Source: Bacteroidales bacterium (lineage in GTDB: Bacteria; Bacteroidota; Bacteroidia; Bacteroidales; UBA932). Taken from it: 64,000 nucleotides of DNA. The first letter of the stretch is position 1. The number at the start of each line of letters is the position of its first letter. This document shows, one piece after another, positions 13,624-32,797 of this stretch. The position numbers were made by a program, and so were the translations under genes. Location of the stretch: NCBI GenBank assembly GCA_024398125.1, contig JAKSJO010000005.1, forward strand, positions 30,436-94,435. The letters run 5' to 3'. Below the pieces are notes generated by a model. It was given only the letters and a program-made list of their open reading frames with translations, made no database searches and was not told the DNA's origin.

Positions 13624-13637
13624 AAAATGCTTGCAAT

Positions 13638-15389: not shown

Positions 15390-15406
15390 TCTTTCCGCAC
15401 AACCAT

Positions 15407-16123: not shown

Positions 16124-16125
16124 CG

Positions 16126-17562: not shown

Positions 17563-17603
17563 TTATACATTAATATCAAACCATAAACAACAAAAACCCA
17601 AGT

Positions 17604-18401
17604 ATGAGAAAAACTATAAATTTTCTTCTGCTTCTCGCAGCCTTGACACTTGTTCCGTGCATCAATGTAGATGCTCAGAAGAAGAAGGCAAAGGTTGACG
17701 TAAGTGAAGCACTCAAGGGCTATTTCACTCCGGCAGACAACGGTGCAGTGAGACCTGATGGTGACGGTTTCATCCGCAGATGGATGATTCTTGAGCCTAT
17801 CAGCAAGCCAAATCCTACCAACCGTGTATTCACTGAGACTTACACCAGAACCGAGCTCAGCAAGGAGTATTTCCCAGGACAGCTTACCATGATGCCGAAG
17901 GATGGAGATCAGGTTACTGTCAACATGGAGTATCAGGCGCCGGTTGACCTTACTTCAAACAGACCAAGAACTCCACAGGGCCAGGGCCCTCAGGAGCCAA
18001 AGTGGGTAAAGGCGAAGCTTACCTGGCACGCTCTTGACAGCGACCATTTCTTTGTCAAGCTGTTCCGTTTTGCCACCGGTCTCAACAAGGACAGATACGG
18101 AGTTATCTTCTGGACAGTTACTGTCATCAACTGTGAGGAGGACATCGAGAATGTCCGTCTCTCGCTCGGCTCAAACAAGGCCGGTATGTGGTGGCTCAAT
18201 GGTGAAGAGGTACTCCTCGTTGCCGGTGACCGTCATATGGGTGTTGACAGTGCGGTTTCTGACCGTGTCACTCTCAAGAAGGGCAAGAACGTTCTCCGTG
18301 GTGCAACCATGAACGGCCCTGGTATGAGTGAGATCTGCGTCCGTTTCATCGATGGTGATACTGGCAAGCCAGTAACCAACTATACAGTAAGTTGCAACTA
18401 A
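17604..18401 (+). CDS. Uncharacterised secreted PUL protein, copy 2
   Basis: The 265-residue paralogue of 15407-16123 has a signal peptide (MRKTINFLLLLAALTLVPC); the Cys here is not followed by a convincing lipobox context. It keeps every shared block (DGFIRRWMILEPISKP, LTMMPKDG, WHALDS, INCEED, MWWLNGEEVLL, TLKKGKNVLRG, NGPGM). Compared with copy 1 it has about 25 extra residues, rich in Pro and Gln (PRTPQGQGPQEP), just before WHALDS. It lies 41 bases after the first GH43 gene and 14 before the second, repeating the order of copy 1. Function unknown; a carbohydrate-binding or accessory role with its GH43 partner is a guess from position. Confidence 0.75.
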   Translation: MRKTINFLLLLAALTLVPCINVDAQKKKAKVDVSEALKGYFTPADNGAVRPDGDGFIRRWMILEPISKPNPTNRVFTETYTRTELSKEYFPGQLTMMPKDGDQVTVNMEYQAPVDLTSNRPRTPQGQGPQEPKWVKAKLTWHALDSDHFFVKLFRFATGLNKDRYGVIFWTVTVINCEEDIENVRLSLGSNKAGMWWLNGEEVLLVAGDRHMGVDSAVSDRVTLKKGKNVLRGATMNGPGMSEICVRFIDGDTGKPVTNYTVSCN

Positions 18402-18415
18402 AAATGATTACAGCT

Positions 18416-19873
18416 ATGACAAACAAGAATATCATATTGGGTGCAGCTCTCTGCATGCTTTCTGCCGGTTCTGCTTTTGCGCAGGGCGGAAAACCTTTCA
18501 TCCATGACCCTTCCTGCATCGTAGAATGCAATGGCAAGTACTATACCTTCGGAACAGGCGGCGGCGGTCTTATCTCACCTGACGGCTGGCACTGGGAGAG
18601 TGGTGCAGTACGTCCTGGCGGCGGTGCGGCTCCTGATGCCATCAAGATCGGTGACCGCTATCTTATCGCTTACTCGACAACGGGTGGCGGAATGGGTGGC
18701 GGACACGCAAGCGCCATCATGACAATGTGGAACAAGGATCTCGATCCAAACTCTCCTGACTTTGGTTATACCGAGGCGGTAGAGGTCGCTTCATCTCTCG
18801 TTGACGAGGACTGCAACGCCATCGACGCTGGTCTTCTTCTGGGTCCGGACGGCCGTCTCTGGTGTACATACGGAACCTATTTCGGACACATCAGACAGGT
18901 CGAACTCGACCCTGAGACCGGTTTCCGCAAGGAAGGGAACGAGGCTATCGACATCGGCCGCAACATGGAGGCATCTACCATGATGTACCGTGATGGCTGG
19001 TACTATCTCCTCGGAACTCATGGCACCTGCTGCGACGGCGTGAATTCTACCTACAACATCGTTGTTGGCCGTTCACGCAACCCACACGGACCATTCATCG
19101 ACAACGTTGGCCGTTCAATGATCGAAGGTGGCGGCAAGATGGTAATCAACGCAGAGAACCGTCTCATCGGTCCTGGACATTTCGGACGCTACATCGAGGA
19201 CGAAGGTATCGAGAAGATGTCTTTCCACTGGGAGGCTGATATGGACCAGAGCGGCCGCAGCGTACTCGCTATCCGTCCTCTTCTCTGGAAGAACGGCTGG
19301 CCTGTAGCAGGCGAGGCTTTCCAGAGCGGTACTTATGAGATCCAGTCAGAGAGAAGCGGATACGCTCTCGAGCTCGCTACCGACTTCGTTCGTATGAACA
19401 GCGGCATGGGTATGTTCGGACGTGGCAACACCGACCAGCCTGTTGTCAAGGTCGAGCAGCAGAAGCTCTCCGAGGTCATCGACACCTGGCCAACCGGCAA
19501 CGCTGAGGTTCGCAATGGCTACTACATGGGCCGTCCTAACCAGCGCTGGAGCATCATCCCTGTTGACGAGGCCGGCGGATATGTTGGTGGTCAGTATTAC
19601 AAGATTCTCATCGAGGGCACCAACCGCGCACTTGCTGCTACCGCAGCTTGTGAGGTAGAGGCAGTCGCTGAGTATACCGGCGCTGACGAGCAGCTCTGGA
19701 GAATCGAGCAGTGCACTGACGGTACCTTCAGAATCATGCCAAAGGCAATCCCTGGTACCAGCGAGAAGCTCGCTCTCGTTTCTCTCGGTGACTGCAAGCC
19801 TACACTTGCCCCATTCGATTTCAACAACGATAACTGCAAGTGGGCATTCAAGTGCTTCACTCAGATTAAGTAA
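18416..19873 (+). CDS. GH43-family glycosidase with ricin-like C-terminal domain, copy 2
   Basis: This 485-residue secreted enzyme has a signal peptide ending AFAQ. The start is 18416 or, less likely, the ATG at 18404. It is paralogous to the first GH43. Catalytic positions are kept: Asp in FIHDPS, Asp in NAIDAGLLLGPDG, and Glu in the segment before RDGWYYLLGTHGTCC. It differs by a Gly-rich loop (TTGGGMGGGH) and a short insert near MGMFGRGN. The C-terminal beta-trefoil-like domain (GGQYYKILIEGTNRALAAT, QLWRIEQ.TDGTFRI) is retained. Two GH43 copies in one locus suggest split specificity on arabinose- or xylose-linked side groups. GH3 starts seven bases after the stop. Confidence 0.85.
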   Translation: MTNKNIILGAALCMLSAGSAFAQGGKPFIHDPSCIVECNGKYYTFGTGGGGLISPDGWHWESGAVRPGGGAAPDAIKIGDRYLIAYSTTGGGMGGGHASAIMTMWNKDLDPNSPDFGYTEAVEVASSLVDEDCNAIDAGLLLGPDGRLWCTYGTYFGHIRQVELDPETGFRKEGNEAIDIGRNMEASTMMYRDGWYYLLGTHGTCCDGVNSTYNIVVGRSRNPHGPFIDNVGRSMIEGGGKMVINAENRLIGPGHFGRYIEDEGIEKMSFHWEADMDQSGRSVLAIRPLLWKNGWPVAGEAFQSGTYEIQSERSGYALELATDFVRMNSGMGMFGRGNTDQPVVKVEQQKLSEVIDTWPTGNAEVRNGYYMGRPNQRWSIIPVDEAGGYVGGQYYKILIEGTNRALAATAACEVEAVAEYTGADEQLWRIEQCTDGTFRIMPKAIPGTSEKLALVSLGDCKPTLAPFDFNNDNCKWAFKCFTQIK

Positions 19874-19880
19874 TTGATCG

Positions 19881-22175
19881 ATGAAAAAAGTTATTGTCAC
19901 TTTTCTGGCCTTGGCGATCGGTATCACATCGGTCGCCCAGACCTTTTCATATCCTTTCCAGAATCCTGAACTTCCTCGCCAGCAGCGTATCGATGATCTC
20001 ATCGGCCGCATGACTCTGGAAGAGAAAGTCGCTTTCCTTATGAACGGATCCGAGGGTATCGAGCGTCTCGGAATCCCTGAATACAACTGGTGGAACGAGG
20101 CACTTCATGGTGTTGCCCGTGCCGGTGTCGCTACAGTGTTTCCGCAGGCTATCGGCATGGCAGCCATGTTCGACCCCGAGGAGCATGAGAAAACGTTCTC
20201 CATCATCTCGGACGAGGCCAGAGCCAAGTACAACGAGGCTATCCGTCGCGGACAGCATCTCCAATATCTTGGACTATCATTCTGGACTCCGAACATCAAC
20301 ATTTTCCGTGATCCTAGATGGGGACGTGGCCAGGAAACATATGGCGAAGATCCATACCTTACATCAGTGATAGGCATGGCGGCCGTCAGAGGTCTCCAGG
20401 GAAATGACGATAATTACTATAAACTTCACGCATGCGCGAAGCACTTTGCCGTCCACAGCGGACCGGAAAGCCTTCGCCATTCGTTCGATGCAGTAGTTTC
20501 CCAGAGAGATCTCTGGGAAACCTATCTGCCGGCTTTCAAGGCACTTGTGACCGAAGCTGATGTCCAGGAAGTCATGGGAGCTTATAACCGTTACGAAGGG
20601 GTCCCTTGCTGTGGCAGCGATCTCCTTCTAATGGATATTCTTCGCAACCGTTGGAACTACCAGGGACTTGTTGTTTCCGATTGTGGTGCCATCACCGACT
20701 TTTTCAAACCGGGAGCACATGGCACTCATACTGACGCTGCTTCGGCTTCTGCCGATGCAGTCAAGGCCGGCACCGACATCGAGTGCGGCAGCAACTACAA
20801 GACCTTGGTTGAAGCAGTAGAACGGGGCATCATCAGCGAGACCGATATCGATGTTGCCGTACGTCGAGTGCTCAAAGGACGCTTCGAACTCGGAATGTTC
20901 GATCCTGTCGAGATGCTTCCTTGGGCTGACATCCCTTATTCAGTAGTTGCTTGCGATGAGCACAATGCACAAGCCCGCAAGGTAGCAAGACAGTCTATGG
21001 TTCTTCTCAAGAACAATGACGTTCTTCCTATCAGACGCGGCAGCGTAAGGAAGATTGCCGTCATAGGTCCCAATGCTGCCGACAGCACATTGATGCTTGG
21101 CAATTATAATGGAGATCCCACTCATGTGATAACTGTCCTTCAGGGTATCAGGAATGCTTATCCAGATGCAGAGGTTACATACGAGCGAGGCTGCGACCAT
21201 CTTGAGGGCTTCACTCCTGTTCCCAAGGCTCCAAGAGCCGGCATGAACATGGCCGGCGAGTGGGAGGGTGTTCCTGCAGCAGGTGAGTCTGGAAGCAAGA
21301 AGGTTGCCCAGAAGTTGCCTCCAATGGGGCCAGAGTGCTATACAGACGAGGCTATCGCGGCTCTTGCGGCACGTGCAGCCGAGGCTGATGTAATCGTATT
21401 CGCCGGTGGTATCACTCCGGCTCTGGAGGGCGAGGAACTTGGTGTCCATCTTGATGGCTTCGCAGGTGGCGACCGTTCCAGAATTGAGCTTCCTGCAATC
21501 CAGGGCAAGGTCCTCAAGGCACTTCATTCTACCGGAAAACCGGTTGTATTCGTCCTCTGCACAGGTTCAGCAATCGCGCTGGCCCAGAACGAGGCTGACT
21601 ATGACGCTCTTGTTGTCGCATGGTACGGTGGCCAGGAAGGTGGTAACGCTCTTGGCGATGTCCTTACAGGTGACTACAACCCATCAGGAAAATTGCCTGT
21701 CACTTTCTACAAGTCAACTTCACAGCTTCCTGATTTCACAAACTACGACATGAACGGCAGAACCTACCGATACATGACCGAGCCTCCTCTATACGCTTTC
21801 GGCTATGGTATGAGCTATACATCTTTCAAGTTCGGCAAGGCCCGCCTTTCATCAAAGAAGATCAAGCGTGGCAAGCCTGTTACCGTCAAGTTAAAGGTAA
21901 GCAATGTCGGCGCAATCGATGGAGCTGAGACCGTACAGGTCTATGTAAAGCGCCTTAATGACGCTGCTGCTCCAGTCATGTCACTCAAGGGCTTCCAGAA
22001 AGCACGTCTTGCTGCCGGGAAGTCCGTAAAACTCAAGATCACCCTCCCTGCCGAAGCCTTCGAGTACTACGATGTGGCTTCAGATGGCCTTGCTGTCAAG
22101 AGCGGTGATTATCAGATTCTTGTCGGCACATCATCCGCTGATACCGGCAAACCTCTTTCACTCAGAATCAAGTAA
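19881..22175 (+). CDS. GH3 beta-xylosidase/beta-glucosidase
   Basis: This 764-residue enzyme has a signal peptide (MKKVIVTFLALAIGITSVAQ), so it is probably periplasmic. The (beta/alpha)8 domain holds [28 protein letters not shown] and the nucleophile Asp (about residue 267) in GLVVSDCGAI. The second alpha/beta domain carries the [24 protein letters not shown] stretch, and a fibronectin III-like domain closes the protein. It shares its architecture with plant-type and bacterial beta-xylosidases and should release xylose from short xylo-oligomers made by the neighbouring GH10. It has no PA14 insert, unlike the second GH3 at 59181. Confidence 0.92.
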   Translation: MKKVIVTFLALAIGITSVAQTFSYPFQNPELPRQQRIDDLIGRMTLEEKVAFLMNGSEGIERLGIPEYNWWNEALHGVARAGVATVFPQAIGMAAMFDPEEHEKTFSIISDEARAKYNEAIRRGQHLQYLGLSFWTPNINIFRDPRWGRGQETYGEDPYLTSVIGMAAVRGLQGNDDNYYKLHACAKHFAVHSGPESLRHSFDAVVSQRDLWETYLPAFKALVTEADVQEVMGAYNRYEGVPCCGSDLLLMDILRNRWNYQGLVVSDCGAITDFFKPGAHGTHTDAASASADAVKAGTDIECGSNYKTLVEAVERGIISETDIDVAVRRVLKGRFELGMFDPVEMLPWADIPYSVVACDEHNAQARKVARQSMVLLKNNDVLPIRRGSVRKIAVIGPNAADSTLMLGNYNGDPTHVITVLQGIRNAYPDAEVTYERGCDHLEGFTPVPKAPRAGMNMAGEWEGVPAAGESGSKKVAQKLPPMGPECYTDEAIAALAARAAEADVIVFAGGITPALEGEELGVHLDGFAGGDRSRIELPAIQGKVLKALHSTGKPVVFVLCTGSAIALAQNEADYDALVVAWYGGQEGGNALGDVLTGDYNPSGKLPVTFYKSTSQLPDFTNYDMNGRTYRYMTEPPLYAFGYGMSYTSFKFGKARLSSKKIKRGKPVTVKLKVSNVGAIDGAETVQVYVKRLNDAAAPVMSLKGFQKARLAAGKSVKLKITLPAEAFEYYDVASDGLAVKSGDYQILVGTSSADTGKPLSLRIK

Positions 22176-22196
22176 CACAACCCAAATAACCTGCAA

Positions 22197-23348
22197 ATGA
22201 ATCTCAAGTCGTTTTCATGTGCTGCACTTGGACTTCTGGTCCTTTCTTTCGGCAGCGCAGATGCACAGAAGAAACCTACTTCACTGAAGGATGCATACAA
22301 GGATGCATTCAAGATCGGCGCTGCAATCAGCAGCTTCGACATCAGCAGTAGAAACCCTAAGTCTATCGAACTCATCACCAGTCAGTTCAATGCAATCTCT
22401 CCAGGCAATGAGCTTAAGCCTGAGTCGCTTCATCCAAAGGCTGATGTATGGGCATGGGACAGGGCCGATGCATATGTGGAATTCGGTCAGAAGAACCATC
22501 TCTGGACTCTCGGTCACACTCTCTGCTGGCATAACCAGACTCCTGATCATTTCTTCTTCAAGGAGAACGGAGAATACAAGAGTCACGACGAGCTCGTTGA
22601 AACCCTTCGCAGCTATATCGAGACTGTCTGCACCCATTTCGGTAACAAGGTGAATGCATGGGATGTAGTGAATGAGATCATCGGCGAGTACGGTGAGTAC
22701 CGTGAGAAAGGCTGGGTGAAGGCCCTTGGCAATGGCGAGGAAGTCGTGAAGCTTGCTTTCAAGTATGCTGACATGTACTGCCCCAAGGAGGTTGAGCTCT
22801 ATTACAATGACTTCAATGTATGGAGACCTGCTCATCTCGAAGGTATCATCAAGATGGTCAAGATGCTCAAGGCAGAAGGCCTTCGTATCGACGGTGTAGG
22901 TATCCAGGCTCACTGGGGACTCAACTATCCCAAGACCGAATATATCGAGGATGCAATCAACAAGCTTGCAGCTCTTGGCGTCAAGGTTCTGATCACTGAA
23001 ATCGACGTTGACGTTCTTCCTCTCACAAAGGAAGGCCAGATCATCGGCCATGCAATGGAAGAGGCTCAGTTCCAGCTTGAGGAGTTCAAGGAGTTCTTTG
23101 ATCCATATCGCGACGGACTTCCTGCAGAAGTTGAACAGCAGCTTGCTGAGCGTTATGCTGAACTTTTCCGCATCTTCTACAGCCATAGGGATGTGATCGA
23201 CCGAGTGACCTTCTGGGGAACTCATGACGGTACTTCATGGAAGAATGGATATCCGATTCCACGCAGAACAAACTATCCTCTTCTCTGGAACCGTGACTAC
23301 ACTCCACACCAGGCATACTATAACGTGCTTGCTATCCCAGGAAAGTAG
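22197..23348 (+). CDS. GH10 endo-1,4-beta-xylanase
   Basis: The 383-residue GH10 enzyme has a type I signal peptide (MNLKSFSCAALGLLVLSFGSADAQ). The acid/base Glu is in AWDVVNEI (about residue 160) and the nucleophile Glu in LITEIDVDV (about residue 268). Other landmarks are NELKPE, HTLCWHNQTPDHFF, GIQAHWGL and TFWGTHDGTSW. It cuts internal beta-1,4 bonds of xylan. There is no lipobox, so it should act in the periplasm on imported oligomers, whereas many xylan loci also have a surface-anchored endoxylanase. It is the clearest substrate indicator for this locus. Confidence 0.95.
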   Translation: MNLKSFSCAALGLLVLSFGSADAQKKPTSLKDAYKDAFKIGAAISSFDISSRNPKSIELITSQFNAISPGNELKPESLHPKADVWAWDRADAYVEFGQKNHLWTLGHTLCWHNQTPDHFFFKENGEYKSHDELVETLRSYIETVCTHFGNKVNAWDVVNEIIGEYGEYREKGWVKALGNGEEVVKLAFKYADMYCPKEVELYYNDFNVWRPAHLEGIIKMVKMLKAEGLRIDGVGIQAHWGLNYPKTEYIEDAINKLAALGVKVLITEIDVDVLPLTKEGQIIGHAMEEAQFQLEEFKEFFDPYRDGLPAEVEQQLAERYAELFRIFYSHRDVIDRVTFWGTHDGTSWKNGYPIPRRTNYPLLWNRDYTPHQAYYNVLAIPGK

Positions 23349-23375: not shown

Positions 23376-26300
23376 ATGAAAAGACTCCTGTCTATAGCAA
23401 TATTATTTTTTGCGGCTTTGGCGGCCTCCGGTGAGAATAAGCATCATTTCTACATGCATTATTCCCACACGGAGGGCCTGCCGGCCACAAACATCACCTC
23501 GTGCTGCCAGGACGATTTCAACCGTCTCTGGGTCGGTACCAGGGAAGGAGTCTATTTCTATTCCGGAGACGGCTTCATTCAGTTTCTCAACGAGGACTAT
23601 CTTGCTGCCTGTGCTCCGAACATCGTAACCGTCATTACTGACAAGGATAACTGTGTGTGGATCGGGTCTACATCCGGCACCGGTTATTACGATGTAATCA
23701 ATCAGACTTTTCATGGCATCGATGCCCTTGGAAAGTCACAGGTGAGTGACATAGACGTGACCGAGGACGGCACGGTTTGGATCACCTGCAACGACGGTCT
23801 CTGGAAATACATCAAGTCCGGAGACAGGCTGGAGAAGATCAAGGACACCGGATCTCTTTCTCCAAACAAGACCTGTGTCATCGAAAACGATAACCTCGTC
23901 TTTACAGCTAACAACAGCTTCCTTTATGTGTACAACACGACCCTTGATAACCTCCGCGTCGTCAGGATGGAAGGGGAGAACCGCCAGTTCGGCTACATTG
24001 AATACATGGGCGGCTCAGACGTCATGGTGTCTGACGGCATAAAGAAAGTCTGCAGGATCGACATTTCACACGGTACGGAACAGGAAATAGTCGGTTCTGA
24101 CATCCTCGAAAACAAGGCGGAAATCTATTCACTCATGTACCGCTCCGGACTCTGCTGGATCGGCACTGCGTATGGCCTTGTCATTTATGATACTTCAAAT
24201 GGAAACATAGAAAGGCAGTTCCCTGATGTCCTCGATGAAAACCTCATCGGAGGCGAGAGCATCAGATGCCTTTTCACAGATAACACCGGCAGCGTATGGG
24301 CCGGTACCTATAATGGCGGCCTTCGAGGATGGGCTTCATACGAAGATGGCTTCGAACGTTTCGTTTCTGACGAGGGCCCTGGAAGCCTTGTTGGAAATTC
24401 AGTCCGTGCGATCTGCGAAGGATTGCATGGAGAGCTTTATCTTGGAACGGAGGAAGGCTATTTAAACAGATACGATCCCGTCGCTGAAGTTTTCACCGAC
24501 TATACGAACCGTTCACATATTCCTTACGGTACAGCCATAACCGATATGATCCGTGTCGGCAATACCATCTTCATCGCCACATATGGAGAGGGTGTCTATG
24601 CCATGGACGCGAGGACCGGGACTCTTGTCAAGAACTATGCACTTGAATGCAATGATTGTCTCTCGATGTACCGCACTCCATCAGGAACTTTGTATGTGTC
24701 GACCGGTGAAGGTCTGTTTGAATACGACAGTGTTCATGACAGGTTTGATATGGTCGATGCCGTAGGCCGCCGATTCGTTCATTGTCTGATCGAGGATACT
24801 CCAGGCCGTCTTATACTTGGCCTGTATGGCACGGGATTCGGGGTCCTTGACCTTGAGAACAAGTCATTCAGGACTGAAGACGTATTCACAAAAGACTACA
24901 TCATATCCAGCCTCTTCAAAGACTCTTTTGGCGCCATCTGGATGGCAACGTCCGGTGCCGGTCTCTATAGGGTCATTCTTTCCTCTCTCAAGGAGGGCAG
25001 CAAGGTCACGGACGTTGTATGTATCACGACAGCTCAGGGCATGCCTTCGAACACAGTGAGAAATATGCTTGAGGATGACGGGAAGGTGCTGTGGATCACT
25101 ACCAGTGATGGTCTTGTTGAAATGGATGCCAGATCATTCGCAATAAAGAAGACATATCTCCAGAAAGACAACGTCATTGGAAGCCAGTTCTCGTACTGCA
25201 AGGGCTACAAAGCATCTGACGGCAACTTCTATTTTGGAACATACAATGGACTTCTTGGTTTTGACCCTGAGTATTTCCGTGAGATATTCAGGAATGCTCC
25301 ATTGAAGATTACAGCTATCAGCATCCTGTCCGATCTTGGAAACAACCATCTCCAGAACCCTGAAGGCCATTTTGTCATCACAGAAGATTCGTTTACGATC
25401 AGGAAGAAAGATGCCGCTTACGTGAAAGTCTCATTCTCGCCGATGACATATGGCGATCCAAACACATCGAACTATGAGTGCAGGCTTTCTGCTGCCGGAT
25501 TCAATAATGAATTCACAACTAACGAGAGAAGCCTGGCCTTTACGAACCTCCGTCCAGGCTCTTATACCTTTACCGTGAATTATCTTGGCAGTGAAGATCC
25601 TGCCACCGAGGCAAGTATCGATATCGTCATCAGGGCGAACTGGTACTACTCCATCGCAGCCAAGCTTTTCTATCTTTCTCTCATCTGTACTGTTCTCTGG
25701 CTGATCTACAGGTCAAGGAAACGTCGTGACCAGGAGGAAACCGCCCGGAAGAATGAACTTCTTGAGGCAAAGAAAGAGAAAGAAATCGTCCACGATAAGA
25801 TGGAACTTCTTACCAATATTGCCCATGAGATCAGAACCCCTGTTTCGGTGATCCAGATTCTTATGGACAAGATAAGTTCTGTCGGAAAGCTTCCTGCCAG
25901 CATCTCAGGTGAGTTTGACTCAATGAAACTCAACATCGATAACCTGAAGAAGCTATGCAATGACCTTCTTGACTTCCGAAAACTGGAGAGTGGCCAGTCG
26001 ATGCTTGTTTTCGCAGATGAAGATATCCAGCCTGTTTGTTTCAAGGTCGTCGATTCATTCACTACCGCGGCGAAGAACAAAGGTATAAACCTGCAGGCAT
26101 CAATTCCGGATACTCCGATAATGGTTCATTGTGATGACTCGGCAATCGAGAGCGTCCTTTGCAATCTTATCGGCAACGCGATCAAGTATTGCAAGTCCAG
26201 CATAATTCTCAAGGTTATAGATGATGCCGAAATGGTTGTCCTCCGTGTCGAGAATGATGGTGACCGTATTTCCGAGAATGAAAAGGAAAATATTTTCAAT

Positions 26301-27290
26301 GCCTTTTACCAGCTTGACAGCAACAAGGGAACAGGCAGCGGACTAGGCCTTACATATTCAAGGAAGATAGCAGAGATGCATTCTGGAAAGCTCTATCTTG
26401 ATACTGATGTCAGGGATATGACATCCTTTGTGTTCGAAATCCCGAAGAGCAAGTCAGACAGCAAGGTTCCAGCCCAGGATGTCAGTGAGGAATCCATGTC
26501 AACGGTGGATATCGAGGTAAGGTCGATCGAAGATAATCCGGATACTACCATCCTTGTCGTCGAAGACAACAAGCCGATGAGGGAACTGATCCGGGATGAA
26601 CTTTCCAAGGATTATAATACTGTGGCGGCTGCAGACGGTCTGGAGGCGCTCAATATTGTCAAGGCCCAGAAGGTCGACCTTGTTGTCAGTGACATCATGA
26701 TGCCAGGCATGGATGGCTGTCAGCTTTGCAATGCGATCAAGGAAGATATCGAGTTGAGCCATATTCCAGTCCTGTTGCTGACGGCTGCAGTCGGAATCGA
26801 AACTCATATACGCTCGCTCAAGTCCGGTGCTGATGCTTATATCGAAAAGCCGTTCAAGATGGACGTCCTCAAGGAGAACATCAATGCGCTGTTCCGTAAC
26901 AGGGATATCCGCAACCGTCAGTTCTCGACCTCGCCATTGTCTCATTTGTCATGCTCGACAGTAAGCAAGGTTGAACAGGATTTCATCAACAAGCTTCATG
27001 ACTATATCATCGAACACATCTCCGAGACTGAACTGACGATCGGAGTGCTTGCTGATGTGATGAATGTGTCAAAGCCTACTCTTGCCAGAAAGATCAAGGC
27101 CGCTACAGGTCTTACCATGAACGAATATGTCAGACTCTGCCGTCTCAAACTGGCCGCGGAGATGCTGGCGGAGAACAGGTACAGAATAAATGAGGTCGCA
27201 TATCTTGTAGGATATTCTTCTCCTTCGTATTTTGCACAATGTTTCCAGAAACAGTTCAACAAACTGCCTTCTGACTTTATCAAGAATTAG
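23376..27290 (+). CDS. Hybrid two-component system sensor-regulator (HTCS)
   Basis: The 1304-residue protein combines, in order, a signal peptide, a periplasmic two-propeller sensor built of WIG/W-type repeats (about 25-655), a Y_Y_Y-like domain (about 690-752), one membrane helix (about 757-780), a histidine kinase with phospho-acceptor His about 817 (NIAHEIRTP), an ATPase domain (NLIGNAIKY, GTGSGLGLTYS), a receiver with phospho-acceptor Asp about 1106 (VVSDIMMPGMDG, Lys in YIEKPF) and a C-terminal AraC-type DNA-binding domain (about 1200-1304). HTCS proteins bind a breakdown oligosaccharide and activate the adjacent susC operon, here presumably a xylo-oligosaccharide. All key residues are present. 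Confidence 0.95.
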   Translation: MKRLLSIAILFFAALAASGENKHHFYMHYSHTEGLPATNITSCCQDDFNRLWVGTREGVYFYSGDGFIQFLNEDYLAACAPNIVTVITDKDNCVWIGSTSGTGYYDVINQTFHGIDALGKSQVSDIDVTEDGTVWITCNDGLWKYIKSGDRLEKIKDTGSLSPNKTCVIENDNLVFTANNSFLYVYNTTLDNLRVVRMEGENRQFGYIEYMGGSDVMVSDGIKKVCRIDISHGTEQEIVGSDILENKAEIYSLMYRSGLCWIGTAYGLVIYDTSNGNIERQFPDVLDENLIGGESIRCLFTDNTGSVWAGTYNGGLRGWASYEDGFERFVSDEGPGSLVGNSVRAICEGLHGELYLGTEEGYLNRYDPVAEVFTDYTNRSHIPYGTAITDMIRVGNTIFIATYGEGVYAMDARTGTLVKNYALECNDCLSMYRTPSGTLYVSTGEGLFEYDSVHDRFDMVDAVGRRFVHCLIEDTPGRLILGLYGTGFGVLDLENKSFRTEDVFTKDYIISSLFKDSFGAIWMATSGAGLYRVILSSLKEGSKVTDVVCITTAQGMPSNTVRNMLEDDGKVLWITTSDGLVEMDARSFAIKKTYLQKDNVIGSQFSYCKGYKASDGNFYFGTYNGLLGFDPEYFREIFRNAPLKITAISILSDLGNNHLQNPEGHFVITEDSFTIRKKDAAYVKVSFSPMTYGDPNTSNYECRLSAAGFNNEFTTNERSLAFTNLRPGSYTFTVNYLGSEDPATEASIDIVIRANWYYSIAAKLFYLSLICTVLWLIYRSRKRRDQEETARKNELLEAKKEKEIVHDKMELLTNIAHEIRTPVSVIQILMDKISSVGKLPASISGEFDSMKLNIDNLKKLCNDLLDFRKLESGQSMLVFADEDIQPVCFKVVDSFTTAAKNKGINLQASIPDTPIMVHCDDSAIESVLCNLIGNAIKYCKSSIILKVIDDAEMVVLRVENDGDRISENEKENIFNAFYQLDSNKGTGSGLGLTYSRKIAEMHSGKLYLDTDVRDMTSFVFEIPKSKSDSKVPAQDVSEESMSTVDIEVRSIEDNPDTTILVVEDNKPMRELIRDELSKDYNTVAAADGLEALNIVKAQKVDLVVSDIMMPGMDGCQLCNAIKEDIELSHIPVLLLTAAVGIETHIRSLKSGADAYIEKPFKMDVLKENINALFRNRDIRNRQFSTSPLSHLSCSTVSKVEQDFINKLHDYIIEHISETELTIGVLADVMNVSKPTLARKIKAATGLTMNEYVRLCRLKLAAEMLAENRYRINEVAYLVGYSSPSYFAQCFQKQFNKLPSDFIKN

Positions 27291-27315: not shown

Positions 27316-27780
27316 ATGAAAGTAGTAATCGACTGCGACGACGCTGCAGTAAACCTGAAGAAGGTCATTGTTGCCCACCTCGAGAAGAAGGGTGTCGAAG
27401 TGACCGATCTTGACTATTATGGATCTCATCCTGGAGCATACTATCCTGAAATCGGATACAACCTCGCTCTCAAGATCCAGGACGGCTCATTCGAAAGAGG
27501 AATCCTTATCTGCGGAACCGGCCTCGGTATGGCAATGATCGCAAACAAGGTAGAAGGCGTATATGCCGGTGTATGCCATGACGTATTCTCGGCTGAGCGT
27601 CTCCGCAAGAGCAATGATGCCCAGATCCTTACCATGGGTGAGCGTGTCATCGGACCTGAACTCGCAAAGACAATCGTTGACGCATGGCTCGTATCAGAGT
27701 TCCAGGGCGGCGGTTCACAGCCGAAGGTTGACCAGATGCGTCAGCTCGAGAAGCAGTCTTTCCATCCAGAATCAAAGTAA
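27316..27780 (+). CDS. rpiB: RpiB/LacAB-family sugar-phosphate isomerase, probably a tetrose-phosphate isomerase
   Basis: This is a 154-residue protein of the RpiB fold. The catalytic Cys66 in ILICGTGLGMAMIANK is present, as are the C-terminal Arg residues. Compared with my recollection of E. coli RpiB, the His of the CDH motif is Asp (CDDA) and the ring-opening His99 is Ser99 (LRKSND). That argues against a furanose substrate such as ribose-5-P and suits acyclic erythrulose-4-P and erythrose-4-P. The start at 27316 follows an A-rich leader 25 bases after the sensor gene; a longer frame from 27232 would overlap that gene. dhaK follows after 19 bases, so it heads a six-gene run. Confidence 0.88.
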   Translation: MKVVIDCDDAAVNLKKVIVAHLEKKGVEVTDLDYYGSHPGAYYPEIGYNLALKIQDGSFERGILICGTGLGMAMIANKVEGVYAGVCHDVFSAERLRKSNDAQILTMGERVIGPELAKTIVDAWLVSEFQGGGSQPKVDQMRQLEKQSFHPESK

Positions 27781-27799
27781 CTAAAACAACCATATAACC

Positions 27800-28801
27800 A
27801 TGCAGAAAATCATCAACAATCCTGATTACGTCGTTGACGAGATGCTCGAAGGCTTCGTCAAGGCGCACAAGAATCTCATTTCTCCAACCGAGAACGAAAG
27901 AGTACTTAAATACAAGAATGCTCCTGTAGAGGGCAAGGTAGGTGTAGTTACCGGTGGCGGTTCAGGCCACAAGCCAGCATTCATCGGCTACATCGGAAAG
28001 AATATGGTTGACGCTGTCGCAGTAGGCGAGCTTTTCTCTTCTCCATCTGCAGCAATGTTCTATGATGCCATCCGCGAGGCTGACTCAGGAAAGGGTGTGG
28101 CTGTTCTTTACGGAAACTACGCCGGCGACAACATGAACGTTGCCATGGCAATGGAACTCGCAGAGGAAGACGGCATCAAGGTAGGCAAGGTTGTCGCAAA
28201 CGACGACGTTCCTTCAGCTCCAAATACCGACCTCGCCAAGAGACGCGGCGTGGCAGGAGAGATTCTCATGTGGAAGTGCGGTGGTGCAAAGGCATCAATG
28301 GGCGGCAGCCTCGATGAGGTGCTTGCAGTTGCCCAGAAGGCTATCGACAACACCCGCAGTATGGGTGTCGGCCTCAGCCCTTGCACCCTTCCTGCAGTAG
28401 GTCACCCTAACTTTACCATCGAGCCAGGTATGATGGAGGTAGGTATCGGTCATCACGGTGAGCCAGGTATCGAGGTTGCTCCGCTCGAGACTGCACAGCA
28501 GATCGCCGAGCGTATGTGCAACGTGATCCTTCCGGACAAGCCGTTCGAGGCAGGTGACGAGGTTGTTGTACTCATCTCAGGTCTCGGTTCAACCCCACTC
28601 CTCGAGCTCTACATCCTCTACAATGAGGTTGAGAAGATCATGGCAGAGAAAGGCATCAAGGTATACCGCTCATTCGTCGGCAACTACTTCACATCTCTCG
28701 AGATGGCCGGTGCAACCCTTTCAGTCATGAAGGTAGACGACGAGCTCAAGGCCTGCATCGACTACGAGGCTGAATCAACCGCTCTTACCGTAACCAAGTA
28801 A
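27800..28801 (+). CDS. dhaK: Dihydroxyacetone kinase subunit DhaK, likely a ketotetrose kinase
   Basis: This 333-residue DhaK-family protein binds short ketoses covalently through a His. VTGGGSGHKPAFIGYIG near the N-terminus matches the substrate-binding loop, GNYAGDNMN follows, and the hemiaminal-forming His lies in GIGHHGEPGIE (E. coli uses the same position). It needs a DhaL partner to supply the phosphate, and dhaL starts 11 bases downstream. Relatives include kinases for D- and L-erythrulose as well as dihydroxyacetone. With an RpiB-like isomerase upstream, a four-carbon ketose is the better fit, but sequence does not prove this. Confidence 0.9.
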   Translation: MQKIINNPDYVVDEMLEGFVKAHKNLISPTENERVLKYKNAPVEGKVGVVTGGGSGHKPAFIGYIGKNMVDAVAVGELFSSPSAAMFYDAIREADSGKGVAVLYGNYAGDNMNVAMAMELAEEDGIKVGKVVANDDVPSAPNTDLAKRRGVAGEILMWKCGGAKASMGGSLDEVLAVAQKAIDNTRSMGVGLSPCTLPAVGHPNFTIEPGMMEVGIGHHGEPGIEVAPLETAQQIAERMCNVILPDKPFEAGDEVVVLISGLGSTPLLELYILYNEVEKIMAEKGIKVYRSFVGNYFTSLEMAGATLSVMKVDDELKACIDYEAESTALTVTK

Positions 28802-28812
28802 TTCCCGTAAAG

Positions 28813-29457
28813 ATGAAAAAGTTCACACAGGACGCAGGCAGCGTCATCGTAGATAATCTTATCCTTGCAATCCAGGAGAACAAGCAGTACCTCAGCGACA
28901 TCGACGGCGCTATCGGTGACGGCGACCACGGCATCAACATGAACAAGGGATTCACCCTTTGCCGTGAGGCTCTCGACAAGGAACCAGGAAACCTCGCTTA
29001 CAGCATAAAGACCCTTGGCCGCATCCTCATGGTCAAGATCGGCGGCTCCATGGGCCCTCTCTACGGAAAGCTCTTCACATCTTTCGCCAAGGCTATCGAG
29101 CCAAAGGAGGAAATCGGCAAGGAGGAGTACCTCGAAGGTCTCCAGGCTGCACTCGCAGGTATCCGCGCCATCTCTCCTGCCCAGGTGGGTGACAAGACCC
29201 TCATGGATGTTCTTATCCCTTCTGTCGAGACTTTCGAGAAGTCAGTGGCAGCCGGAAAGTCATTCGAGGAGTGTCTCGACGACCTTTGCGCTGCAGCTGA
29301 GGCTGGCCGTGACAGCACCATCGACATGGTTGCCAAGCTCGGTCGCTCAAGCCGCCTCGGCGAGAGATCGCGTGGTGTGATGGACGCAGGCTCGGCATCT
29401 TGCTGCCTCATCCTCTGCACCATGGCAAAGACTGCCAAGACACTCATCGGAGCATAA
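28813..29457 (+). CDS. dhaL: Dihydroxyacetone kinase subunit DhaL
   Basis: This 214-residue all-helical nucleotide-binding subunit carries the metal-binding Asp signature DGAIGDGDHGINMNKG (about residues 31-46), which holds Mg-ADP or Mg-ATP. GGSMGPLYGKLF and the C-terminal GRSSRLGERSRGVMDAGSASC are family signatures. It donates the phosphate to the ketose bound on DhaK. No DhaM or other PTS component is seen nearby, so the pair probably uses ATP directly or borrows a distant PTS protein. It lies in the middle of a same-strand run with gaps of 11 and 18 bases. Confidence 0.9.
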   Translation: MKKFTQDAGSVIVDNLILAIQENKQYLSDIDGAIGDGDHGINMNKGFTLCREALDKEPGNLAYSIKTLGRILMVKIGGSMGPLYGKLFTSFAKAIEPKEEIGKEEYLEGLQAALAGIRAISPAQVGDKTLMDVLIPSVETFEKSVAAGKSFEECLDDLCAAAEAGRDSTIDMVAKLGRSSRLGERSRGVMDAGSASCCLILCTMAKTAKTLIGA

Positions 29458-29475
29458 ACCTAATCGCAAGCTGTC

Positions 29476-30810
29476 ATGCTGATCATACTGCTACTCCTTG
29501 CGATCGCTTTCATCGTCGTATCAACGACGAAACTCAAGCTGCATCCATTCCTAGCATTGATCATCGCGGCAATCGCGTTCGGTCTCTGCTCAGGAGTGAA
29601 GCTTGATGCCATCATCAAGTCAGTCAACAACGGCTTCGGCAACACCGTCGGTTCTGTCGGAATCGTCATTGTCATCGGATGCATCATCGGAGCCTTCCTG
29701 GAAGAATCTGGCGGTGCATACGTCATGGCCAGAAGCCTCCTTCGCGTAACTGGCGAGAAGCATGTGCCTTTTGCCATGCTCATTCTCGGCTACTTCATCT
29801 CGATTCCTGTCTATGCTGACTCCGGATTCGTCATCCTGACCCCGCTGAACAGGGCACTGACCAAAAAGGCCGGACTGTCCCTTGCCAGCACTGCGTGTGC
29901 ACTCGGTATCGGTCTGACCCTGACCCACTGTCTCGTTCCTCCTACCCCAGGCCCTATTGCAGCCGCGGGTGAGATGGGCGCAGACCTCGGTCTTGTGATC
30001 CTTACCGGCGTGATGGCCAGCATCCCGGCAATCCTCGTGGCTTGGCTTTTCGTGACCCGCTGGGCTTCACGAATCCACATCGATCCTAATCCACAGGAAG
30101 ATGAGGCTGCCATCAATGCAAAGATGGCTTCCGCTCCATCGGCAGCCAAGTCGTTCATCCCTGTCATCGTTCCTCTCGTGCTGATCGTGCTCAAGTCTGT
30201 TTCGGCTTTCCCTACAGCACCATTCGGTGACGGGGCATTCGCAACGGTCATCGGTTTCATCGGTGAGCCTGTCGTGGCGCTTCTTCTCGGTATGTTCATC
30301 GCCTTCACGCTTCCCAAGAAGTTCGACACTGAGATGCTTTCGACCACAGGTTGGGTAGGCAAGGCTCTCGGCGAGGCTGCAAAGATCATCATGATTACAG
30401 CTGCCGGTGGAGCATTCGGAATGATTCTCCGCGATGCGGGCATTGCAAACGTTCTTGGTGACGCGCTCAAGGACTTCAACCTCGGCATCTGGCTGCCGTT
30501 CATCATTGCGGCATCCCTCAAGACTGCTCAGGGCTCTTCTACAGTCGCCATCATCACCACCGCCGCGATAATCTCGCCGATGATGGACGTGCTTGGTTTC
30601 GTGTCTCCAATGGAGAAGGCGCTGGCTGTGTCTGCTTTGTGCTCGGGAGCAATGGTTGTGTCTCATGTCAATGACAGTTTCTTCTGGGTGGAGACCCAGA
30701 TGTCCGACATGACGATCAAGACCGGCTACAAGCTTCACACACTTGGAACCCTTATCTGCGGTCTCACCTCGATGATCACAGTTTGGTTCGTCTACACTGT
30801 ATTCTGTTAA
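29476..30810 (+). CDS. GntP-family gluconate/sugar-acid permease
   Basis: This is a 444-residue integral membrane protein with about 12 hydrophobic segments. GntP-family landmarks are FVILTPLNRALTKKAG, LTHCLVPPTPGPIAAAGEMG, LKTAQGSSTVAIITTAAI and SHVNDSFFW near the C-terminus. The family imports gluconate, idonate, glycerate, threonate and related hydroxy acids with protons. Its presence between a ketose kinase and a GarR-like dehydrogenase indicates that the substrate of the operon enters as a sugar acid. The exact acid is unknown. Confidence 0.9.
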   Translation: MLIILLLLAIAFIVVSTTKLKLHPFLALIIAAIAFGLCSGVKLDAIIKSVNNGFGNTVGSVGIVIVIGCIIGAFLEESGGAYVMARSLLRVTGEKHVPFAMLILGYFISIPVYADSGFVILTPLNRALTKKAGLSLASTACALGIGLTLTHCLVPPTPGPIAAAGEMGADLGLVILTGVMASIPAILVAWLFVTRWASRIHIDPNPQEDEAAINAKMASAPSAAKSFIPVIVPLVLIVLKSVSAFPTAPFGDGAFATVIGFIGEPVVALLLGMFIAFTLPKKFDTEMLSTTGWVGKALGEAAKIIMITAAGGAFGMILRDAGIANVLGDALKDFNLGIWLPFIIAASLKTAQGSSTVAIITTAAIISPMMDVLGFVSPMEKALAVSALCSGAMVVSHVNDSFFWVETQMSDMTIKTGYKLHTLGTLICGLTSMITVWFVYTVFC

Positions 30811-30822
30811 TAAAACATAGAA

Positions 30823-31821
30823 ATGCAAAAGAAAACAATTCTCAATATAGAGACTGTCTACACCGCAAACGAGTTTGCCGCAAACGGCAAGACCTGTGTG
30901 GCAGGTGGTTCAGAGACCACACCGGCAGTCTATCTCCATGACCTCGCAGCCGGTACATCGGAGCTCGTTGCCGACTGTCCTGGCGGAGTCATGAGCTTCG
31001 TGCCTGTCCCAGGCATCAAGGATCAGTTCTATTCTGTACAGGGCCTTTTCCCTGGCTTCATCGGCTTCGAGGCCGGCATCTACAGACATGCAAAGGTCGA
31101 TGGTGCATGGAAAACCGAAAAGGTGATCGAGCTTCCTTTCGCACATCGCTGCGACGTCATCGAAAAGGACGGCGTCTGCTATCTCTTCGCTGCTTCATGC
31201 AGCAAGTACAAGGTTGATCCTGCAGACTGGAGCAAGCAGGGCGAAGTGCTCGTTGCACGCGTTGACGAGAACGGTCTCGCAGAGGAGCCGAAGGTCATCT
31301 TCACACTTGGCCGCAACCATGGCATGCTCAAGGCCAAGGTCAACGGCGAGGACATGATCTTCGTATCAGGTGAGCAGGGAATCTTCTACTTCGACATGAA
31401 TGACGGCTGCAAGCCTGTCCAGATATTCGACAAGGAGGTAAGTGAGTTCGGTCTCCTTGACATGGATGGTGACGGTGTGGAGGAACTTGTTGCAATCGAG
31501 CCTTTCCACGGCCACATGCTCAACCTCTACAAGCGCAATGGCGAAGCCTGGGAACTCAAGTTTACCGACGAGCTTTCATTCGGCCACGGTCTCAGCTGCG
31601 GCATGTTCAACGGAGAACCTATCTTCGTGGTCGGCAACCGTCGCGGACCTCTCACCCTTGTGAAATACAGCCCAAAGAACATAGCAGAAGGCATCGTAGA
31701 AAAGGAAATCCTCGAAGAGGAATGCGGTCCAACCCAGACCCAGGTATTCAACTTCGAAGGAACAGACTATATCCTCAGCGCTAATCAGCTCAAGAAGGAA
31801 GTCACACTTTACAGCAAATAA
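30823..31821 (+). CDS. Cytoplasmic FG-GAP/propeller-like protein of unknown function
   Basis: The 332-residue protein has no signal peptide. Repeated beta-strand blocks, with FGLLDMDGDGVEELVAIEPFHGH near residues 210-230 resembling a calcium-type FG-GAP/VCBS turn, suggest a seven-bladed propeller. His-rich loops (PFAHRCD, LGRNHGM, FGHGLSCG) could hold a metal or an active site. It lies inside the sugar-acid operon with gaps of 12 and 16 bases on either side. A lactonase, epimerase or aldonolactone-binding role would suit the pathway and fold, but I cannot assign one. I do not recognise a named family. Confidence 0.6.
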   Translation: MQKKTILNIETVYTANEFAANGKTCVAGGSETTPAVYLHDLAAGTSELVADCPGGVMSFVPVPGIKDQFYSVQGLFPGFIGFEAGIYRHAKVDGAWKTEKVIELPFAHRCDVIEKDGVCYLFAASCSKYKVDPADWSKQGEVLVARVDENGLAEEPKVIFTLGRNHGMLKAKVNGEDMIFVSGEQGIFYFDMNDGCKPVQIFDKEVSEFGLLDMDGDGVEELVAIEPFHGHMLNLYKRNGEAWELKFTDELSFGHGLSCGMFNGEPIFVVGNRRGPLTLVKYSPKNIAEGIVEKEILEEECGPTQTQVFNFEGTDYILSANQLKKEVTLYSK

Positions 31822-31837
31822 CAAAAGATTCATAAAA

Positions 31838-32743
31838 ATGGACAACAAGTCAAAAAAGATTGGTTTGGTAGGTCTCGGCGTCATGGGCAAGCCTATGGCA
31901 AAGAACCTCGTCAAGAATGGCTTCTCACTCATCGTATTCGATATCAAGCCAGAGCCCGTACAGGAGCTCGTAGAGCTTGGAGCAGAGAAGCGTGATACAC
32001 CGGCAGCTCTTGCTGCCGATGCAGACATCATCATCACCATGCTTCCAAACTCGCCGCATGTAAAGGCAGTTGTAGCAGGGGAGAACGGTATCCTCGAAGG
32101 CATCAAGCCAGGCTCAGTCTACATCGACATGAGCTCGGTTTCTCCAATCGTCTCAAAGGAGCTCTGCGAGATGATGGCAGAAAAGGGTGTCGAGATGCTT
32201 GACGCTCCTGTAAGCGGAGGTGAGCCTAAGGCTATCGATGGAACCATGTCAATCATGGTCGGTGGCAAGCAGGAAGTATTCGACGCCATGGATGACGTAT
32301 TCCACGCAATGGGTCATGACGTTACCCTCGTGGGCGAGATCGGCAGCGGAAATGTCTGCAAGCTCGCAAATCAGATCATGGTAGCTCTCCACCTCGCAGC
32401 TGTAGGTGAGGCTATGGTATTCGCAGAGAAGGCAGGAGCCGATCCTGAGAAGGTATACCAGGCTATCCGTGGCGGTCTTGCAGGTTCAACAGTCCTTGAT
32501 GCAAAGATGGACCGTATCCTCGACCGCAACTTCAAGCCGGGCGGCCCTATCTGGATGCACACCAAGGATATGCTCAACGTACGTGACGCAGCCCTCGCAT
32601 GCGATGCACCTATTCCACTTTCAACCATGGTGCTCGAGGCCTTCAAGGCATGCAAGTGCGACGGCCATGTAAATGATGACCACTGCGGCATCATCCAGTA
32701 TTGGGAGAAGCTTGCAAACGTGACCGTGAAGAGAAGATCATAA
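31838..32743 (+). CDS. garR: GarR-like 3-hydroxyacid dehydrogenase (tartronate semialdehyde reductase family)
   Basis: This 301-residue NAD(P)-dependent beta-hydroxyacid dehydrogenase has a Rossmann fingerprint at the N-terminus (IGLVGLGVMGKPMAKNL), the substrate motif DAPVSGGEPKAIDGT, and the catalytic Lys in GNVCKLANQ (about residue 175). AIRGGLAGSTVLDAK and DRNFKPGG match E. coli GarR closely. The family reduces tartronate semialdehyde or oxidises 3-hydroxy acids; related enzymes oxidise and decarboxylate sugar acids. No glyoxylate carboligase or glycerate kinase is nearby, so a role on a pentonate or tetronate is at least as likely as the GarR role. It is the last gene before a terminator. 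Confidence 0.88.
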   Translation: MDNKSKKIGLVGLGVMGKPMAKNLVKNGFSLIVFDIKPEPVQELVELGAEKRDTPAALAADADIIITMLPNSPHVKAVVAGENGILEGIKPGSVYIDMSSVSPIVSKELCEMMAEKGVEMLDAPVSGGEPKAIDGTMSIMVGGKQEVFDAMDDVFHAMGHDVTLVGEIGSGNVCKLANQIMVALHLAAVGEAMVFAEKAGADPEKVYQAIRGGLAGSTVLDAKMDRILDRNFKPGGPIWMHTKDMLNVRDAALACDAPIPLSTMVLEAFKACKCDGHVNDDHCGIIQYWEKLANVTVKRRS

Positions 32744-32762: not shown

Positions 32763-32797
32763 AAGCCGTCCATGACTAATTCGTGGGCGGCTTTTTT
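32763..32797 (+). terminator. Terminator after the sugar-acid operon
   Basis: AAGCCGTCCATGA pairs with TCGTGGGCGGCTT (two G-T pairs) around a short loop and is followed by six T residues at 32792-32797. It lies 19 bases after the garR-like stop. Confidence 0.85.

Follow-up and report, generated by a model that had tools for sequence, protein, structure and literature searches.

A six-gene cassette in a 64,000-nucleotide stretch of contig JAKSJO010000005.1 from a Bacteroidales bacterium (referred to as the window) is tentatively interpreted here as a sugar-acid catabolic operon ending in erythrose-4-phosphate. Our confidence in the full six-gene model falls somewhat short of an even chance, while the half made up by its kinase and isomerase, which would act on a tetrulose and its phosphate, is very probably read correctly when taken alone. 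An earlier note on this DNA had described six tightly spaced genes between positions 27316 and 32743, and all six open reading frames (ORFs) are indeed present there on the + strand, separated by gaps of 19, 11, 18, 12 and 16 bp. Gene families were assigned with Pfam and NCBIfam, which gave no match for the propeller protein. The genes of the cassette are the following:

27316..27780, + strand: RpiB-family isomerase, proposed to act on a tetrulose phosphate (DerI/EryI-type); PF02502, 161.8 bits
27800..28801, + strand: DhaK, ketose-binding kinase subunit; PF02733, 382 bits
28813..29457, + strand: DhaL, nucleotide-binding kinase subunit; TIGR02365, 169.2 bits (cut-off 138.3)
29476..30810, + strand: GntP-family sugar-acid permease; PF02447, 350.7 bits
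30823..31821, + strand: beta-propeller protein of 332 aa, proposed metal-dependent keto-acid enzyme (decarboxylase or lyase); distant relative of the aldos-2-ulose dehydratase propeller
31838..32743, + strand: GarR-like beta-hydroxyacid dehydrogenase, proposed 3-dehydrogenase of the imported acid; NF008592 and TIGR01505

The isomerase and the kinase group with proteins from tetrulose-type operons

Comparison with E. coli RpiB revealed that the window isomerase reads D, S, R, G, S and K at positions 10, 99, 113, 133, 134 and 137, replacing H, H, R, R, H and R, and the same residues are present in the four other cassette copies included in the tree described below. Copies from the type III genomes (G602, G603 and G605, in which a derived RpiB lies with DhaK at a second locus) have D, S, G or S, S and K at positions 10, 99, 133, 134 and 137, and those of type II, the variant lacking GarR, have P, S, R, S and K at these positions, plus Q replacing R113. 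A PF02502 protein was found in 13 of the 14 genomes searched, all except G200. Since ten genomes carrying a propeller-linked RpiB also hold a second, canonical copy elsewhere, the cassette protein is not the pentose-phosphate enzyme, and a housekeeping role was rejected. The 11 other copies, from these ten genomes plus one in G605, retain H10, H99, R133, H134 and R137; G602 and G603 have the derived form only, and G605 has both. The score of the window protein with the ribose-5-phosphate isomerase B model TIGR01120 was below the cut-off (129.6 vs 138.65 bits), and that with the broad model PRK05571 was above it (166.1 vs 135).

In a 34-row RpiB tree, the cassette, type III and type II copies form, together with nine context rows, a 20-row group supported by a 99/98 branch, apart from 13 canonical rows; long rows (Rubrobacter, Pasteurella, G199, E. 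coli, one G605 copy labelled G605a and S. meliloti) make placements inside the groups unsure. The context rows correspond to two erythritol loci (rhizobial EryI), a Rubrobacter locus that also encodes a Dha kinase, an annotated OiaX apionate locus, a Pantoea operon with genes for a Dha kinase, a TIM barrel, a TPI-like protein, transketolase and transaldolase, a Pasteurella operon, two plasmid operons from E. coli and Salmonella, and an unannotated Sinorhizobium row (L040). Dha kinases and transaldolase recur among their neighbours, with transketolase in three operons. Both plasmid operons contain DhaKL, an alcohol dehydrogenase and transaldolase, and the E. coli one also has transketolase. Their arrangement (L121 and L125) is DhaL-DhaK-MFS-alcohol dehydrogenase / RpiB-tal, with tkt in L121; it resembles a gene island for the breakdown of a tetritol or a tetrulose, and its kinase and isomerase are close relatives of those in the window. 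According to an excerpt of one report, LerI and DerI together yield erythrose-4-phosphate in E. coli, where RpiB potentially has DerI activity (PMC10733421), and an excerpt of another places a tpiA2-rpiB pair downstream of eryABCD in Brucella (PMC3522698). The altered phosphate-site residues might also have pointed to a uronate without a phosphate group as the substrate; this idea was dropped, as rhizobial EryI, which acts on phosphates, is changed similarly.

With regard to the kinase, a 25-row DhaK tree places the cassette, type II and type III proteins in a 14-row group (100/100) that also holds the kinases encoded on the E. coli and Salmonella plasmids, which share 63-64% identity with that of the window, and kinases from Shinella, Rhizobium and Sinorhizobium (62-66%). 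All 14 rows share the motif LYGNY(A/S)GDNMNV. Four DhaKLM kinases form a separate group (100/99) and read KNY where the window protein has GNY, so that the window DhaK belongs, on this tree, to a clade distinct from DhaKLM. It retains the histidine in GHHGEPG. There is no DhaM in the six-gene cassette, and no phosphotransferase-system enzyme I (PF05524) was found in any of the 12 genomes searched, which makes ATP the likely phosphate donor. The reading as an ordinary dihydroxyacetone kinase or DhaKLM is weakened by the tree grouping and the lack of enzyme I. In Shinella the related kinase follows a gene annotated as D-threitol dehydrogenase, whose product scores above the cut-off for the GolD/DthD subfamily (408.6 vs 286). 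Two plasmid operons from Rhizobium and Sinorhizobium (L116 and L119) encode TRAP components, an NAD(P)-dependent oxidoreductase, a TIM-barrel protein, DhaK and DhaL; the best model for the Rhizobium oxidoreductase (L116) is threonate dehydrogenase, at 272.9 bits, below the cut-off of 350. These operons appear as a parallel acid-to-ketose arrangement, with no RpiB or propeller in the stretch shown.

The propeller and the GarR-like dehydrogenase

Judged by fold and motif comparison, the propeller protein is a distant relative of aldos-2-ulose dehydratase (AUDH). The whole-propeller fold match to AUDH (PDB 4a7k) stands above those to other propellers; it covers 326 residues at 12% identity and aligns an HR motif, containing the equivalent of His-155, and an E-x-F-H-G motif. 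Through a linking homologue (L060), H108 of the propeller aligns with the catalytic His-155 of AUDH. This homologue and a second one (L061) pass PF22301; among the 24 propellers, matches to this family were weak in 18 (best E 0.0017) and below the gathering score, and for the window copy only FG-GAP is listed, with an E value of 0.16. For the propeller, neither PHROGs nor phmmer against PDB nor an initial profile search of PDB was informative. The reaction of AUDH is an elimination of water that proceeds by way of a metal-bound enediolate, and AUDH carries cupin domains itself. A cupin gene adjoins the propeller gene in three loci (L034, L037 and L082; Pfam-checked in L037), and more distant propellers adjoin AP_endonuc_2 TIM barrels (L083 and L085 by Pfam, L084 by eye).

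The GarR-like enzyme is 57% identical to the Salmonella tartronate-semialdehyde reductase 1vpd. A segment reading PGGPI(W/R/K)MHTKD is present in all 20 copies compared (the window and 19 loci), with Gly-Gly where five solved homologues have Gly-Phe. This phenylalanine lines the substrate site in related reductases, and given its loss a substrate larger than tartronate semialdehyde is plausible for the cassette enzyme. The source of tartronate semialdehyde was evaluated with the Gcl and GarL models: no Gcl above the cut-off was found in ten genomes, all of which gave sub-threshold matches, and no GarL above the cut-off in 14, two of which gave sub-threshold matches (180.5 bits in G200). A classical galactarate or glyoxylate role of GarR is disfavoured by these results.

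Conservation and locus types

Two peptide patterns for the propeller, run against named genomes, retrieved 24 loci. In ten of them, including L015, which is nearly identical to the window, the six genes occur in the same order and on the same strand; the earlier note had proposed looking for this order in other Bacteroidales, and it was found there. Two further loci are cut by the contig end and agree with this arrangement, two have GarR upstream and divergent, and one is cut. In five, propeller and GarR are convergent, with none of the other four genes on the stretch examined; in three, from two Verrucomicrobiota metagenome-assembled genomes (MAGs) and Bacteroides oleiciplenus, a racemase-like gene accompanies RpiB and the propeller, and GarR is absent; and the last is a 3-kb contig bearing the propeller alone. 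GarR lies within the locus in 19 of the 24. The six-gene arrangement is not due to chance. GH3 or GH10 relatives lie near seven of the ten six-gene loci. The nearest named record is a Bacteroidales MAG from horse faeces, with a propeller 97% identical to that of the window.

Within the family of the window organism, the propeller was found in 8 of 199 genomes, belonging to 2 of 25 genera. A GarR above the TIGR01505 cut-off was found in the same eight genomes and in no other of the 199 (p 1.9e-14), as expected for genes of one operon. Of 395 genomes of the phylum, 3 gave profile matches to the propeller family, including the source genome; the other two matches are distant, longer FG-GAP proteins, one of them adjoining Gfo/Idh/MocA-like genes (by eye), and were rejected as cassette members. 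In the class of an Opitutaceae MAG, 38 of 286 genomes gave matches, 5 strong and 33 weak (E 1.6e-14 to 7.8e-4). No relatives of the propeller were found in plasmids.

Joined genes were found in three loci. Propeller and GarR form a single ORF of 638 aa in two rumen MAGs (L023:9995-11908 and L024:9995-11908), and RpiB and propeller form one of 504 aa in the Opitutaceae MAG (L034:6512-8023). A further Opitutaceae genome (G827) has the same GarR-less locus type, with no GarR in the stretch fetched. An Asp/Glu-racemase-family protein is encoded just upstream of RpiB in this variant (L037:8775-9512, L082:3426-4115, L034:5711-6487 and L032:1848-2534; the assignment was Pfam-checked in L037 and L082), and by eye the L037 protein seems to retain only one of the two usual cysteines. 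In addition, uroporphyrinogen-decarboxylase-like genes adjoin the propeller-GarR pair (L030:6955-7902, L036:11948-12988 and L036:15785-16939), the Pfam match being confirmed for L036:11948-12988 only.

Two sub-modules and a proposed pathway

In the three type III genomes, the derived RpiB, DhaK and an MFS transporter are encoded at a second locus (L112, L113 and L114), and the propeller and GarR elsewhere. DhaL and TIM-barrel proteins were seen at the second loci of G603 and G605, the G602 contig being cut; the MFS and the TIM barrels (AP_endonuc_2) of G605 were model-checked, and the other two loci were assigned by eye. One second locus (L112) also carries a DUF5060 protein. On the basis of these separate loci and of the propeller-GarR single ORFs, we divide the cassette into two sub-modules, an arrangement that suggests that GarR and propeller supply a ketose consumed by DhaKL and RpiB.

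The module occurs together with acid-type transporters of three unrelated kinds, namely GntP, TRAP in L037 (by eye) and MFS in L112. The GntP of the window scores 291.0 bits with TIGR00791, just below the cut-off of 292.75, and is far above that of PF02447 (350.7 vs 22.5). For the L112 protein, from G605, the best NCBIfam match is the D-galactonate transporter model, below its cut-off.

The proposed mechanism is the simplest series of steps in which each of the six genes has a role, and corresponds to the scheme of the earlier note with a step assigned to the propeller. GntP would import a sugar acid, most simply a five-carbon aldonate, and the GarR-like dehydrogenase would use NAD(P)+ to oxidise the hydroxyl group of this acid at C3, yielding a 3-keto (beta-keto) acid. 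The propeller, with a metal ion and the histidine equivalent to His-155, would then stabilise an enediolate and release CO2 to leave a tetrulose; we infer the decarboxylation because the enediolate of AUDH would also serve for decarboxylation or retro-aldol cleavage. DhaK would bind the tetrulose, DhaL would transfer a phosphate to it, at a position that is likewise predicted, and the RpiB-family isomerase would convert the tetrulose phosphate into erythrose-4-phosphate for the pentose phosphate pathway. A D-pentonate would give D-erythrulose, so LerI would not be needed, and the cassette has none. The substrate may differ between locus variants, or the propeller may carry out another enediolate reaction.

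Evidence against the full model and alternative explanations

Several observations weigh against the full model. First, AUDH is a dehydratase and not a decarboxylase, and the RpiB-propeller ORF of L034 ties RpiB to the propeller rather than to the kinase alone, which does not fit the division into two sub-modules. Second, the GarR-like enzyme scores above two cut-offs for tartronate-semialdehyde reductase (436.7 vs 397 for NF008592 and 381.8 vs 340.75 for TIGR01505). In addition, a GarR above the cut-off is absent genome-wide from the GarR-less variant genomes (G199, which is B. oleiciplenus, G599 and G600) and also from G604; B. oleiciplenus retains RpiB, propeller, DhaK, DhaL, TRAP-type genes (by eye), a cupin and the gene of the Asp/Glu-racemase family. 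A first dehydrogenase step is therefore not universal. Conversely, G200 (L036) has propeller and GarR, no PF02502 protein, and the sub-threshold GarL relative mentioned above. On the side of the isomerase and the kinase, the window RpiB reaches 154.7 bits with the NCBIfam DerI model, below the cut-off of 240 (the rhizobial EryI control reaches 256.7), so membership in the curated DerI family is not claimed; GNY is present in all 21 non-DhaKLM rows and hence is not diagnostic of the DhaK group; and four of the seven kinases labelled as tetrulose-context (Rubrobacter, Pantoea, Pasteurella and Rhizobium L129) fall outside that group. The Shinella locus also has two transketolase genes, the arrangement of the apiose transketolase route in an excerpt of a published account (PMC13001218), so that the substrate of its kinase need not be a tetrulose. 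Finally, no source of free pentonate in fibre breakdown was identified.

The earlier interpretation of the locus as a route through a tetrulose phosphate is partly supported by these comparisons. Its kinase-isomerase half is clearly supported, given the 99/98 grouping of RpiB with EryI, the 100/100 grouping of DhaK and the canonical RpiB copies elsewhere; the score below the DerI cut-off, the reductase cut-offs passed by GarR and the GarR-less variant count against the interpretation as a whole.

Among the alternatives, all of them unlikely, the least so is a triose route from a hexuronate or 5-keto-aldonate, in which RpiB would isomerise the uronate, the propeller would act as a metal-dependent retro-aldolase cutting C3-C4 to dihydroxyacetone and tartronate semialdehyde, DhaKL would produce dihydroxyacetone phosphate and GarR would produce glycerate. 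The reductase scores of GarR, the histidine retained in DhaK, the three acid-type transporters, the GH3/GH10 setting and the RpiB-propeller ORF would all be in line with it, the GarR-less variant would be easier to accept, and the chemistry of AUDH runs via the same C2-C3 enediolate. Against this, both RpiB and DhaK group with tetrulose-type operons, the GarR segment is altered in every copy compared, and RpiB accompanies DhaK, not the propeller, in the type III genomes. Moreover, glycerate kinase is not associated with the propeller, being found in 7 of 8 genomes with it and 114 of 191 without it (p 0.15). UxaC is also set against this route, although its presence in all ten genomes searched is without discriminating value.

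Two further explanations appear improbable to a similar degree. In one, the propeller would be a true dehydratase or lyase, working by beta-elimination as AUDH does, in a pathway that degrades a modified uronate, for example 4-O-methylglucuronate, the product being processed by the other genes. AUDH is its closest relative by fold, the elimination of water is the AUDH reaction, the cupin neighbours recall the cupin domains of AUDH, and the GH3/GH10 setting is in line with this reading; DhaKL and GarR, however, would be left with no native substrate. In the other, an apionate-like or 2-C-hydroxymethyl acid would be degraded to erythrulose, with GarR and propeller replacing the oxidoisomerase and decarboxylase of apionate catabolism. 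The RpiB relatives include the annotated OiaX locus and the similar Pantoea operon, and a DUF5060 protein lies beside RpiB and DhaK in the type III locus L112 and, in a Rhizobium, close to DhaKL and a sugar ABC transporter. However, the six-gene cassette has no OiaX-, oxidoisomerase- or LerI-like gene, and the GH3 or GH10 genes near most six-gene loci point away from a branched acid.

The least probable is a tetronate route, in which the GarR-like enzyme would oxidise threonate or erythronate to 3-oxotetronate, the propeller would decarboxylate this to dihydroxyacetone for phosphorylation by DhaKL and RpiB would have a side role: the Rhizobium and Sinorhizobium operons do pair an NAD(P)-dependent oxidoreductase (the one of L116 being closest to threonate dehydrogenase), a TIM barrel and TRAP with a 62-64% identical DhaK, but RpiB would be left without a step despite lying beside DhaK in six-gene and type III loci, and three variant genomes have no GarR above the cut-off.

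Genomic neighbourhood of the cassette

The cassette is flanked in the window by the following features, the fibre-degradation genes being given as context only:

10525..23348, + strand: fibre-degradation genes (SusC/D-like pair, two GH43, GH3, GH10)
23376..27290, + strand: hybrid two-component sensor/regulator, probable regulator (Reg_prop, HisKA, HATPase_c, Response_reg, HTH_18)
32763..32793, + strand: terminator-like hairpin with a 13-pair stem and a T tail, beginning 20 bases beyond the last stop

The hybrid regulator ends 25 bp upstream of the cassette, and in L038 the same cassette is likewise preceded by a copy 49% identical to it. Taken together, terminator-like sites are about as frequent in the window as in shuffled sequence (5 vs 4.3), and the window has no Rfam match and no tRNA. 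Two related proteins of 265 and 246 aa, encoded at 17604-18401 and 15383-16123, have no Pfam match and share an FI(R/T)RW motif; relatives 43-74% identical to them lie near the propeller locus in 6 of the 24 loci (L023-L028).

Relationship to known systems and significance

No description of this six-gene set was found among the papers listed by searches of the open-licence PMC literature, which does not extend to subscription papers. Among the known systems that come closest, tetritol catabolism in Mycobacterium smegmatis employs DerK/LerK, LerI and DerI; the cassette would share with it a Dha-type kinase and an RpiB-type isomerase leading to erythrose-4-phosphate, its isomerase falling in the tree group of rhizobial EryI, whereas its tetrulose would derive from a sugar acid and it has neither a polyol dehydrogenase nor LerI. 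Apionate pathway I, reportedly described by Carter et al. in 2018, is said to consist of an oxidoisomerase, a TIM-barrel decarboxylase, LerK, LerI and DerI. The route proposed for the cassette would likewise proceed from an acid by oxidation and decarboxylation to erythrulose, followed by a Dha-type kinase and a DerI-type isomerase, but with a GarR-like dehydrogenase and a propeller instead of the oxidoisomerase and the TIM-barrel decarboxylase, and with no LerI; genes for the oxidoisomerase and LerI are absent from the six-gene cassette, and no genome-wide search for them was made. The L-threonate/D-erythronate pathway, which uses a DUF1537 kinase, has in common with the proposed route GntP or TRAP, a beta-hydroxyacid dehydrogenase, an isomerase and a decarboxylation; the cassette differs in having a Dha-type kinase and neither the DUF1537 kinase nor a class II aldolase-type decarboxylase. 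Unlike Phanerochaete AUDH, the cassette protein consists of the propeller alone, without the other AUDH domains, and lies in a sugar-acid operon. Finally, the cassette dehydrogenase shares the SGGEPKAIDG and GLAGST motifs with GarR (1vpd) and differs from it in the PGG for PGF described above and in the lack of GarL and Gcl above the cut-offs.

In its most specific form, which we consider less likely than not, our proposal is that of an undescribed oxidative-decarboxylating entry from linear pentonates to tetrulose phosphates. The decarboxylase would be a metal propeller of the AUDH type that is paired, and in some loci fused, with a GarR-like dehydrogenase; the route would operate in gut Bacteroidales and, without that dehydrogenase at the locus, in Verrucomicrobiota. 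If true, this would mean that the propeller fold supports a chemistry new to it and that a new route leads from a C5 acid to a C4 phosphate. The full model would extend the few tetrulose-phosphate pathways by a branch starting from a sugar acid, and a bacterial family of propellers with a fungal enzyme among its relatives would receive its first function. The labels RpiB, DhaK/DhaL and 2-hydroxy-3-oxopropionate reductase in such genomes may be wrong in substrate. The model would also explain the presence of a sugar-acid permease beside fibre-degradation genes in herbivore gut bacteria.

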